Part shown: piece by piece, positions 1-25,850 of the stretch
Position numbering within the stretch: the stretch's first letter is position 1
Layout of the letters: each line of letters opens with the position of its first letter
Assembly: GCA_003601835.1 (NCBI GenBank)
Contig: PIYB01000009.1
Span: 25,502 to 58,196 of the forward strand
From: Candidatus Bathyarchaeota archaeon
GTDB lineage: Archaea > Thermoproteota > Bathyarchaeia > Bathyarchaeales > DTEX01
Reading direction: 5' to 3'
DNA length: 32,695 nt
Notes under the pieces: generated by a model
Told to the model about the DNA's origin: nothing
What the model saw: the letters and a program-made list of their open reading frames with translations, nothing else
Databases searched by the model: none
Program-made: the position numbers and the translations under genes

Positions 1-199
1 CAAGAGGGTTCTTGTGAAGCGCGTTTCCAACAGCCCTGTAAGCACGGGGTTTTCCGATTTTCTCCGCTATTCTTCGATATGTGCTGACTTTTCCTTTAGG
101 TATCTCAAAGGTTGCGACCAGAACGTCTCTCTCGAATGGTGTTTCATCGATTAGATGTTTGATCACATCTTCCTTCGTCTTTATCCGAGGCTGCGGCAT
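1..199 (-). CDS. Methylated-DNA-protein cysteine methyltransferase / alkyltransferase-like DNA-binding domain (partial, runs off the left edge)
   Basis: Minus-strand translation from ATG at 199: MPQPRIKTKEDVIKHLIDETPFERDVLVATFEIPKGKVSTYRRIAEKIGKPRAYRAVGNALHKNPL, matching the Ogt/ATL pattern (GKVxTYxxIAxxIGxPxAxRAVGNALxxNP). The PCHR site lies outside the window. Confidence 0.85.
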   Translation of the reverse strand, partial: MPQPRIKTKEDVIKHLIDETPFERDVLVATFEIPKGKVSTYRRIAEKIGKPRAYRAVGNALHKNPL

Positions 200-314
200 C
201 AGCTTTGTTCTCCTTTCAACTACGCTACGTTGTTTCGACACAAAAACTCTTCGATTTTTTAAGGTTTAGAGACGTATCAGGATGCTCATGCAGACCGCCA
301 ATTTTTCCATCGAC

Positions 315-434
315 ATGCTCCTCCACCAGTATTACCTAAGTCAGGTTCAAGGGATCAACAGTCTGTTCAGCCGTCCTCTCAGCCGAATCGAACTCAGCTC
401 TCTTTTCTTCACCCATTTCGCACGCACCCTTCAA
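315..434 (-). promoter_or_regulatory. TPP (THI-element) riboswitch-like aptamer
   Basis: Minus-strand RNA reads ...GGGUGCG...GGCUGAGAGG...GAUCCCUUGAACCUGACUUAGGUAAUACUGGUGGAGGAGCAUG. It has the conserved CUGAGA, CCCUUGAACCUGA and UAAUAC blocks in the correct order. A P2-like GGG/CCC and a P1-like CCUUUU/AGGAGG pairing can be drawn. Confidence 0.75.
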
Positions 435-725: not shown

Positions 726-1307
726 TCAGACTGTTTTGGTTGAACCTCGTGTTTTCTCGTACATCTTTTCAAGTGTCCAACGCGTCGCTGATTGGATCTC
801 TCTTTCTCTTTGAGGCACGAAGTTTCGGATTATGATCTCTTTGATGATTTTGCCGTCTGTTCTGATCTTGTACGAGAACGCTTTTTCGGGTACAAGCTTC
901 CCTTGGTTTACCAGCTCTTGGTCTTTTTCCCGCATCTTTGCAAATATTCTTTCAACCAAGAACGCGGTGAAAGGAGGCGTGTTTACATTGAAAACCTTGT
1001 TTTCCATCGGGACGATTCGCATCTGCCCGTCTTTGATGTACAGGTTCGCAAGAGGTTCACCAGAGCCCGTTTTCAACAACACCGTTCTAGCCTGTTCTCT
1101 TGGGGGCGCCGGCTTGGGCTTAACTTCCGGCGCGGGAACAGACGGTTTCGCTATTTCTTCTGCTCTTTTGAAGCTTTTTTCAATCAGCAGATCGTTGATG
1201 AAATCTAGCAAAGCTCGTAAACCATCCAGCTCGGTTTCCAGCGTCTTAACCCGTTCTTCCAACGTTTCTCTTAGCTGCGCAATTTTTCTTATCTTCTCTT
1301 CTTCCAT
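726..1307 (-). CDS. Conserved hypothetical protein with N-terminal coiled coil
   Basis: 193-aa ORF; N-terminus MEEEKIRKIAQLRETLEERVKTLETELDGLRALLDFINDLL is heptad-like. The antisense ORFs look like shadows. Confidence 0.7.
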   Translation of the reverse strand: MEEEKIRKIAQLRETLEERVKTLETELDGLRALLDFINDLLIEKSFKRAEEIAKPSVPAPEVKPKPAPPREQARTVLLKTGSGEPLANLYIKDGQMRIVPMENKVFNVNTPPFTAFLVERIFAKMREKDQELVNQGKLVPEKAFSYKIRTDGKIIKEIIIRNFVPQREREIQSATRWTLEKMYEKTRGSTKTV

Positions 1308-1733: not shown

Positions 1734-2522
1734 CTAGCCTACGAGAAGCTGTGTTAACGCGGGGAACTGGATGTATATTGAAACGTAAACGGAAACCACG
1801 AAGATAACTGCCGAGACCAAGATTAGGTAAATGTCTTTTCCTCCGATTTTAAGGACGTAAAGGTTTGTCCGATTTTTTGTGGCACCCCATGCTCTGGATT
1901 CCATGGTTTCTGCAAGTTCAAGACTTCGACGAATAGCGTTAACTATCAAAGGAATCAAGATCGGTATGTAATTCCTAATCTTCTTGATGAAGTTGCCGCC
2001 TTCAAGCTCAAGCCCCCTAGCTTTCTGAGCATCCATAATGGTTTGAGCCTCCTCCGCAAGCACCGGTACAAACCGCACAGCTGTTGTGAACGCGAAACAC
2101 AATTCGTAAGGAACATGACTTTGCTCCAACGCAAGTCCAAGCAGATCCGGCGAGGTTGTGAGGAAGAACACGGAAAAAGACTCGATAAGAACCAGAAACC
2201 GCACAGTCATGGCGAGAGAACGTTCAATAATCGCCGGCAGAGAACCGTAGCTCCCATAAAAATACAAAGATAAAAGGTTCATCGTGAAGATTATAACCGC
2301 AAACATGGCTGAACCCTTCATGGAGCGTAACCATTCCTTCTGAACACCTGCGAGGACAACAAACGGTATCTGGATTACAAACAAAATCAAAAGCGGGATT
2401 AGCTGATTGAACATCACCGCCACAGAGAACAAGGCGCAAACATAGATGAACTTGGCTCGTGGATCCATCGTGTGAACAGGAGAAGACACGCTGCGGAACT
2501 TGAAGCCGTCGAACATGCTCAA
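1734..2522 (-). CDS. ecfT: Energy-coupling factor transporter transmembrane protein EcfT
   Basis: Polytopic; QKARGLELEGGNFIKKIRNYIPILIPLIVNAIRRSLELAETMESRAWG carries the EcfT coupling motifs (ARG and SRAWG). Confidence 0.92.
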   Translation of the reverse strand: MSMFDGFKFRSVSSPVHTMDPRAKFIYVCALFSVAVMFNQLIPLLILFVIQIPFVVLAGVQKEWLRSMKGSAMFAVIIFTMNLLSLYFYGSYGSLPAIIERSLAMTVRFLVLIESFSVFFLTTSPDLLGLALEQSHVPYELCFAFTTAVRFVPVLAEEAQTIMDAQKARGLELEGGNFIKKIRNYIPILIPLIVNAIRRSLELAETMESRAWGATKNRTNLYVLKIGGKDIYLILVSAVIFVVSVYVSIYIQFPALTQLLVG

Positions 2523-3340
2523 CTCGGTTCACCCAGTTTTTGAAGAAGAATTCTGCTTGCCTCGTAGACATCGATAACCTGCCTTGGAAACCCTTTCTCA
2601 GCGAGATTGTGGAAAATGCGAGCTATTTCCGGAAGGACGACAGATGCTCGGTTAACCAACTCCTGATTAGTCAGAATTTCCTCCGCCCTACCTTGAGCAA
2701 GAATCTTCCCGTTTGCCATTAGAACAATGCGCGGTTTGCACTCGGTTACAAATTCGATGTCGTGAGTCACGATGATGACGGTTTTACCTTGCTTGTTCAG
2801 CTGCATGATGAACTGTCTGAGACGTTCTTTCTGCCGGTTGTCCTGCCCAATTGTAGGCTCGTCAAGTATAACGATCTTAGGGTCCCAAGCCAACACCGAG
2901 GCTAAAGCAACCCTTTTCCTTTCTCCTCCGCTAAGCATAAACGGGGAAACCTTCCGGTACTCAGTTAAGTCCAGCAGGTTGAGAGCCCAGTCAACCCGTT
3001 CTTTTATGGCTTTTTTGTCGTAGCCGAAGTTTTTCAGTGCGAAGCTGATCTCTTCCTCCACGGTTTCGCTGAAAAGCTGATGATCAGGGTTCTGGAACAC
3101 AAAGCCTACCTTTCGAGCTAACGTTGCCACACTTACTTTAGTGGTTTCAACCCCATCCACAAGCACCGTTCCCTTCGTAGGCTTCAACAACCCGTTTATG
3201 TGCTTAACCAAGGTTGTTTTCCCAGCTCCATTCTGACCCATGATCGCCACGAATTCCCCGTCCGCAATCTCAAGACTGACCCCTCTCAATGCTTCAACCC
3301 CGTTTGGATAAGTATGGTGAAGATCCTGAATCTTGATCAA
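2519..3340 (-). CDS. ecfA: ECF transporter ATP-binding protein
   Basis: Walker A GQNGAGKTT, signature LSGGERKRVALASVLA, Walker B KIVILDEPT, H-loop VTHD; overlaps ecfT by 4 nt. Confidence 0.93.
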   Translation of the reverse strand: MIKIQDLHHTYPNGVEALRGVSLEIADGEFVAIMGQNGAGKTTLVKHINGLLKPTKGTVLVDGVETTKVSVATLARKVGFVFQNPDHQLFSETVEEEISFALKNFGYDKKAIKERVDWALNLLDLTEYRKVSPFMLSGGERKRVALASVLAWDPKIVILDEPTIGQDNRQKERLRQFIMQLNKQGKTVIIVTHDIEFVTECKPRIVLMANGKILAQGRAEEILTNQELVNRASVVLPEIARIFHNLAEKGFPRQVIDVYEASRILLQKLGEPS

Positions 3341-4212
3341 CGGGCTAACGTCTCCACTACGGCTTCATAGGCTTCTTCAGAGCTTAAGGGAACCCGCCCA
3401 AGGTCTACTCCGCCTGCTTTAAGAATCTGGTAAAGCCGTGTAGCCTTAGGTATCCCCACTCCGATGAGGCGGGCTTCCTCGCTGTTGAACACTTCTCTAG
3501 GATGACCGTTCAGAACGATCTTACCTTTCGTCATGACCATAACGCGGTTTGCATATTTCGATGTTAAGTCAAGCCTGTGTTCAACAAGGATTATCGTAAT
3601 ACCGAGTTTCTTATTGAGGTCGTTGATCACCTTGAAGATCCGCAAGGCGCCAAGAGGATCCAAAAAACTGGTCGGCTCGTCAAGCACAATTATCTCCGGT
3701 TGCATAGCAAGAACCGATGCCAAAGCAACCCTCTGCTGTTGCCCACCTGACAGCTCATACGGCGCCCGGTCTTTCAACCCGTATATGCCAGCCATTTTAA
3801 GAGCCCAGTCAACCCGTTCCCGAATTTCTTCCCTAGGGACGCCGAGGTTTTCCAGCCCGAAAGCCACATCCTTCTCAACTGAAAGCGCGAAAAGCTGGTT
3901 TTCAGGATTTTGAAAAACCATGCCAACGTGTTGTGCGAGCTCATGGATTGGATGTTCTGAAACTTGAAGTCCTGAAACCGTGATTTCGCCTTCAAGTTTT
4001 CCACCGTAAAAATGCGGGATAAGCCCGTTGAAGCATCTGCACAGAGTTGTCTTCCCGCATCCGCTTGGCCCAGTCAGGATAACGAATTCTCCTTTCTCAA
4101 TATTCAGAGATACATCTTCGAATGCGGGTTTCGTTCCTATCGGATACGTATATGTCAGCCCTTCGGCTTTGATGATTGCCAACAGCTCACGCCTCACACA
4201 TGACCCAAGCAA
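3337..4212 (-). CDS. ecfA: ECF transporter ATP-binding protein (second ATPase)
   Basis: Walker A GPSGCGKTT, LSGGQQQRVALASVLA, EIIVLDEPT, VEHR. The true start may be the TTG near 4182 (MAIIKAEGLTYTYP). Confidence 0.92.
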   Translation of the reverse strand: MLGSCVRRELLAIIKAEGLTYTYPIGTKPAFEDVSLNIEKGEFVILTGPSGCGKTTLCRCFNGLIPHFYGGKLEGEITVSGLQVSEHPIHELAQHVGMVFQNPENQLFALSVEKDVAFGLENLGVPREEIRERVDWALKMAGIYGLKDRAPYELSGGQQQRVALASVLAMQPEIIVLDEPTSFLDPLGALRIFKVINDLNKKLGITIILVEHRLDLTSKYANRVMVMTKGKIVLNGHPREVFNSEEARLIGVGIPKATRLYQILKAGGVDLGRVPLSSEEAYEAVVETLAR

Positions 4213-25075: not shown

Positions 25076-25097
25076 GTTGAATGTTGAGGGACTGAAA

Positions 25098-25850
25098 ATG
25101 GCTCAAGCAAAAACCTCATCCACGTTCACCGTGACAGTTACAGCTGTCTTCACAGCCCTAGTTTGTGCCGCAACAATAATTTTCTCAATGTATGTTCCGT
25201 CAACAGAAGGCTTCTTTAACATCGGCGAATCAATGGTTTTCCTGTCAGCTCTCCTCTTCGGACCGTTCGTCGGGGCTTTCGCCGGCGGCGTAGGATCCAT
25301 GATTGCAGATCTATTATTAGGCTATCCGCATTACGCTCCAGCCACACTCATCATTAAAGCATGCGAAGGATATGTAGTCGGGTTCCTGCAGAAGAACAAC
25401 CCTCGACTGGTTTCCAAAACTCACTGGAAGATCTTCACCTCAATCTTAGGATTGGTTGCCGGCGTCCTGTTAGCGGTTGTCGGCAGCATCTACTACAGCG
25501 GCGAATCGGAGCTAACCCTAGGATTCACAGCATACACCCTGTTTCTCCCGTACCAGTTCTGGCTGGTCCTAGGCGCTGCAGCAGCATGTTGCTTAGCAGG
25601 AATAGGGTTCGTTGCCGATCCAGAGTTCGGCTGGACCGTTTTCTCAGTAATCGCAGGCGGCTTCGTCATGGTCCTCGGCTATTTCATCTATCAAATGTTC
25701 TTCATAGGCTGGCTTTTCAACATCCAAGCTGTCGCAGTGGCAGAACTACCCATCAACATCGGGCAAATGACAGTGGGAGCCGTTATTGCACTTCCAATCG
25801 CCAAGATTGTTTGGCGGGCGTTTCCCTATCTCAAACGTGGGAAAGAATAG
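25098..25850 (+). CDS. ECF transporter S-component-like membrane protein
   Basis: TVTAVFTALVCAATIIFSMYVPSTEGFFNIGESMVFLSALLFGPFVGAFAGGVGSMIADLLLGYPHYAPATLIIKACEGYVVGFL is a typical ECF S-component N-terminal half. ATG at 25098 preferred. Confidence 0.87.
   Translation: MAQAKTSSTFTVTVTAVFTALVCAATIIFSMYVPSTEGFFNIGESMVFLSALLFGPFVGAFAGGVGSMIADLLLGYPHYAPATLIIKACEGYVVGFLQKNNPRLVSKTHWKIFTSILGLVAGVLLAVVGSIYYSGESELTLGFTAYTLFLPYQFWLVLGAAAACCLAGIGFVADPEFGWTVFSVIAGGFVMVLGYFIYQMFFIGWLFNIQAVAVAELPINIGQMTVGAVIALPIAKIVWRAFPYLKRGKE

Follow-up and report, generated by a model that had tools for sequence, protein, structure and literature searches.

The TPP riboswitch-like element on the minus strand of the window (by which we mean the whole stretch analysed, 32,695 nucleotides of contig PIYB01000009.1 from a Bathyarchaeia MAG of 1.25 Mb and 85% completeness) is quite probably a decayed and orphaned TPP riboswitch, in other words a pseudo-riboswitch; it is a small evolutionary relic and no new kind of switch. 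Among the possibilities raised by the first-pass annotation, an orphan left behind by the loss of its thiamine gene is the best supported one, given the losses at invariant positions, the faster evolution and the absence of a thiamine gene downstream. The death of a riboswitch is seldom caught in the act; since an intact and a drifting copy are present in one genome, and 121 elements serve as a yardstick, relaxed selection becomes measurable here position by position.

All three THI-element blocks pointed out by that annotation are found on the minus strand in the described order (CUGAGA at 382-377, CCCUUGAACCUGA at 353-341 and UAAUAC at 334-329). The RF00059 match, obtained in a search of 551 bases, spans the full model (1-105; positions 424-300) and reaches an E value of 6.3e-5 in the whole-genome search. 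Its score of 32.9 bits, however, falls short of the Rfam gathering score of 54.3 bits; for this reason the element is absent from a default Rfam scan of the window, which reports a tRNA as its sole match. The features of the element and its surroundings are given in Table 1.

Table 1. Features of the riboswitch-like element and the adjoining sequence, in window positions
Feature	Position	Strand	Remarks
ogt/ATL-like gene, 5' part	1..199	-	PF01035, E 4e-14; likely start ATG at 199
TATA-like stretch CTAAACCTTAAAAAATC before ogt	255..271	-	modest score of 3.9, riboswitch-promoter matrix
16-codon ORF MSMEKLAVCMSILIRL (then stop), probably not meaningful	266..316	-	P 0.17 in shuffles; no detectable thiT similarity
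RF00059 (TPP riboswitch) match, sub-threshold	300..424	-	cmscan, 32.9 bits, E 1.2e-4
Aptamer match to thiT riboswitch of the same genome	320..410	-	blastn, 91 nt ungapped, 80% identity, E 8.45e-19
Shine-Dalgarno-like GGAGG within aptamer 3' strand	320..324	-	layout as in thiT and thiC leaders of the order
C77U in J5/4, pyrophosphate/metal-binding pocket	325	-	invariably C in the confident elements (121/121)
J3/2 CUGAGA (pyrimidine-sensing T-loop), intact	377..382	-	
P3 hairpin GCUGAGUUCGAUUCGGC, pairing kept	382..398	-	relative to thiT copy, one G-C pair became A-U and another G-U
P2 5' strand AGA replacing GGG	401..403	-	all three G in 121/121 confident elements

The nearest relative of the window element is the canonical TPP riboswitch of the same genome (G000:C28:6036-6149), which stands directly before thiT (ThiT/YuaJ; PF09515, 152 bits). 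Both copies share the aptamer plan, the blocks (CUGAGA, GAACCUGA and UAAUAC in the thiT copy) and the Shine-Dalgarno sequence (SD) in the aptamer 3' strand; the window copy, however, scores 32.9 instead of 67.5 bits, carries C77U, G16A, A84G and a changed P2, and lacks both the aptamer fold in silico and a downstream thiamine gene. Because the two can be aligned without gaps at an E value of 8e-19, the window element is, judged by its sequence, homologous to a canonical TPP riboswitch far beyond chance. The flanks of the two elements are not significantly similar on either side (blastn). In the aptamer tree, the window element falls into one clade with the own thiT copy and elements of the genomes G059, G003 and G006, the closest family and order copies (support 0.875), and its tip is one of the three longest. 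A chance resemblance or model noise, with no homology to TPP riboswitches at all, would accord with a score under the gathering threshold, but is refuted by the 91-nt ungapped match at 80% identity to the own thiT aptamer, and the grouping with the elements of the closest relatives also speaks against it. As a side observation, virus-like head genes (a weak Phage_capsid match, PF05065, just under cut-off; L004:3213-5679) adjoin the thiT riboswitch of this genome, so that a provirus is possible.

TPP riboswitches scoring above the Rfam cut-off are present in 110 of the 163 genomes of the order, the host genome included, and the suggestion that an archaeal TPP riboswitch would be a rare instance is therefore wrong; the impression of rarity has to be corrected to two thirds of the sampled genomes in this Bathyarchaeia order. 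A literature search yielded no paper on TPP riboswitches of Bathyarchaeia. As a yardstick, 121 confident elements of the order (51-78 bits) were collected together with their downstream sequence. Their first ORF is thiT-like in 94 cases, thiC in 12 and a CytX-like NCS1 transporter in three, the remainder being four other S-component-like genes, four ParA/MinD-like ATPases, one MEDS-domain gene and three unassignable ones (classes defined by sequence patterns, those of thiC confirmed by PF01964). Below the confident scores there is a gap, followed by a degenerate copy before a ParA-like frame (36.2 bits), a pair at contig edges (35.5 and 30.6 bits) and the window element, while noise-like matches in the order-wide search lie at 22-24 bits and reach about 24 at most.

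Against this yardstick the decay of the window copy becomes apparent. At the 41 near-invariant columns (conservation of 99% or higher across the 121 confident elements), 119 elements depart at none or one and the other two at two, whereas the window copy departs at seven. Its changes (E. coli thiM numbering, according to our own mapping anchored on G40/G42/A43 and C77/G78) include G16A, G18-C48 to A-U, C77U and A84G; CUGAGA, G19, G78 and the pairing of P3, P4 and P5 are intact. In the published structures, G42 and A43 flank the pyrimidine of the ligand, which is bonded to G40 and G19; C77/G78 hold the pyrophosphate together with its metal ions, and A-minor contacts are made on G16-C50, G17-C49 and G18-C48 (PMC7824784; PMC3764141). 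Mapped onto these contacts, the pyrimidine half has been preserved, with both CUGAGA and G19 present, and the damage is found in the pyrophosphate half and in P2: the pocket in J5/4 keeps G78 next to a U in place of C77, and of the three P2 pairs only G17-C49 is kept, as G16A leaves an A.C mismatch with C50 and G18A, together with the change of its partner C48U (354), gives an A-U pair.

A comparable case is L090 (G055:C39, 36.2 bits), situated before a ParA/MinD-like reading frame, which is likewise sub-threshold and has lost several invariant positions (5/41), C77U among them. In contrast to the window copy, its downstream frame is retained, though without a normal start codon, G19 and G40 are lost, and a congener carries an intact version (L218, 60.8 bits). 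We considered C77U as the mark of a variant class common to both elements and rejected this, since L090 also lost G19 and G40; a shared change is to be expected by chance among so few positions.

The window copy differs from the own thiT copy at 19 positions, all of them transitions. Two same-family outgroups place 17-18 of these on the branch of the window copy, leaving 1-2 for that of the thiT copy (p 3.6e-4 and 3.8e-5), and a more distant outgroup assigns 15 to the former and three to the latter; by this comparison the window copy has changed at a much higher rate than its sister. The differences are spread over near-invariant (7/41, 17%), intermediate (3/12, 25%) and variable columns (9/34, 26%), so that there is little sign of constraint, invariant and variable sites having changed at similar rates. 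Of the 25 pairs, 22 are retained, against an average of 21.7 after randomly placed transitions of the same kind (P 0.58); two doubly changed pairs are equally to be expected with such transitions (P 0.41). Maintenance of the structure by selection was therefore rejected, pairing being kept no better than at random. The predicted minimum-energy fold of the window copy (z -0.41) differs from the two-arm aptamer, whereas the folds predicted for five intact elements preserve the TPP arrangement (z -1.5 to -2.7; L033 with an altered P4). It should be noted that a pattern consisting of transitions only can also arise in a structured RNA under selection. Rate, pattern, fold and the long tip are all signs of relaxed selection on the window copy.

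No gene of thiamine synthesis, salvage or transport follows the element. In the direction of minus-strand transcription, the order is ECF genes (4212-1734), an AsnC/Lrp-like gene, a 193-aa protein, the element, ogt and proteasome beta; the small AsnC/Lrp-like gene, identified by eye, lies on the opposite strand. The ECF transporter module noticed in the first pass is indeed there, but being located upstream on the minus strand it is no possible target and not controlled by the element. The same reading had described the next gene as Ogt/ATL-like with a TATA-like region of its own, which agrees with our data (Table 1); transcription of ogt probably starts from a promoter of its own. No good TATA core was found upstream of the element, where the best promoter match is weak (6.1 bits, P 0.064) and situated at -53, real ones centring on -47. 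The gene order ogt-proteasome is kept in many family members, and no TPP element is detectable before ogt in these relatives. Conserved synteny was also considered and rejected: among the relatives compared, neither the 193-aa upstream gene nor ogt has a TPP element beside it. The 193-aa protein itself (726-1307, minus strand) belongs to no Pfam family; a search of 61 genomes found it conserved in 55, the own genome included. Immediately outside the window, just left of 25502 (contig 42), the ogt gene crosses a short N gap, so that its middle is unread. The ECF module (1734-4212) has no adjacent S component; a solitary ECF riboflavin-type S component (PF07155) is encoded at 25077-25850 on the plus strand.

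The layout of GGAGG followed by an ATG (316-314) opening a 16-codon ORF is as first described, with only 3 nt between the SD and this ATG and 9 nt to a second in-frame ATG. An ORF of this length near the SD is not unusual in shuffled sequences (P 0.17; 0.08 for an ATG with at least 14 codons), and taken alone it is within chance; nor is its sequence a recognisable one. A search for a ThiT remnant downstream of the element gave a similarity score of 21 against 20.3 ± 3.4 in shuffles, with none above the shuffles, and the best comparison of the 3' flank with the leaders of the order scored 31, which is not significant against shuffled maxima of 24.6 ± 3.3 (largest 39).

Intact leaders of the order are of two kinds. 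In thiT leaders the gene starts just after the aptamer SD; a short ORF of 9-28 codons follows the aptamer SD in all 12 thiC leaders and in two of the three CytX-like leaders, the start of the main gene lying 63-88 nt beyond that SD. In the thiC leaders (L077, L078, L008, L186, L192, L179, L080, L180, L082, L182, L191, L011) the short ORF begins 2-14 nt after the embedded SD, and in one clade the peptides are alike, (M/V/L)NRSAFKLL-stop. Singly, each of these ORFs could have arisen by chance (for 9 codons, P 0.3-0.4); jointly, the 12 thiC and two CytX-like leaders give a product of about 1.5e-7, relatedness ignored. It is possible that they serve a TPP-gated translational coupling. An attenuator hairpin hiding the thiC SD was sought in the short-ORF leaders, and no consistent or unusually stable structure emerged. 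In a family relative, the leader of a TPP-thiC locus (L094, G006:C12:1492-1605) resembles the window element in that its aptamer SD precedes a short ORF of 9 codons (MLIVQIIKT), which stops ahead of the next gene start. Its aptamer, however, is intact (68.2 bits), and the genes behind it are thiC and one with a kinase domain (thiD-like), where the window has ogt.

Could the element still be at work? A diverged TPP riboswitch gating the 16-codon ORF and thereby, through coupling or read-through, ogt, would be in keeping with an SD embedded in the aptamer directly before an ATG, with the preserved CUGAGA, P3, P4 and P5, and with the short ORFs and separate downstream starts of the thiC and CytX-like leaders; we nonetheless regard it as unlikely, as C77, G16, A84 and others, invariant or nearly so in the 121 elements, are changed, the minimum-energy fold is not the aptamer, the ORF is within chance, ogt starts about 65 nt past its stop behind a TATA-like stretch of its own, and family relatives have no detectable TPP element at ogt. 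Nor is there support for a riboswitch that still governs translation of a leader peptide, in view of the same loss of invariant positions, non-aptamer fold in silico and chance-level ORF. The combination of an intact pyrimidine-sensing loop and G19 with an altered C77 could in principle mark a variant with a shifted ligand, e.g. thiamine or thiamine monophosphate. Such a variant is highly improbable, as the changes are spread evenly over the element with no focus on the pocket, it occurs once among the 163 genomes of the order and has no relatives of its own kind, and there is no target gene. Highly improbable, too, is a re-purposed THI aptamer that continues to be transcribed, responds to another thiamine vitamer through its altered pyrophosphate pocket and couples a micro-ORF to the DNA-repair gene ogt.

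We thus prefer the decayed orphan, for which the following history can be proposed. A thiamine gene at this locus would once have been controlled by a working TPP aptamer, a close relative of the own thiT copy; binding of TPP would have closed the aptamer over the embedded GGAGG and kept translation from starting, a mechanism suggested by how the intact copies are laid out. Once the thiamine gene was gone from this locus, selection would have been relaxed and the aptamer would have drifted by transitions at near-neutral rates, so that at present it most likely regulates nothing. The copy may retain some residual function, since CUGAGA, G19, G78 and the pairing of P3, P4 and P5 are intact and one P2 change (G18-C48 to A-U) is compensated.

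Which gene was lost cannot be told from the identity of the element to thiT or thiC copies. The window layout, with SD, short ORF and separate downstream gene, is nearer to the thiC leaders of the order than to its thiT leaders, and neither thiC nor thiN was found in the 85% complete genome, nor was any thiD above cut-off. Among the other genomes of the family, 16 of 20 have thiC, and G006 keeps TPP-thiC followed by the kinase-domain gene. Because of the layout and the missing thiC, we favour the loss of a thiC-type operon at the window locus, an origin which is unproven, the absence of thiC and thiD being weak, suggestive evidence in a genome of this completeness; the alternative is a stray duplicate of the thiT leader.

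Of broader interest are two leads from the comparison, the short ORFs in the TPP-thiC leaders and the TPP riboswitches before ParA/MinD-like genes. The latter (PF13614/CbiA), an unexpected target for a thiamine switch, stand directly behind TPP riboswitches in several Bathyarchaeia genomes (L184, L194, L218 and L018; degenerate in L090), and in L176 the gene of a MEDS-domain sensory protein (PF14417) stands directly behind a TPP riboswitch of 57.8 bits.
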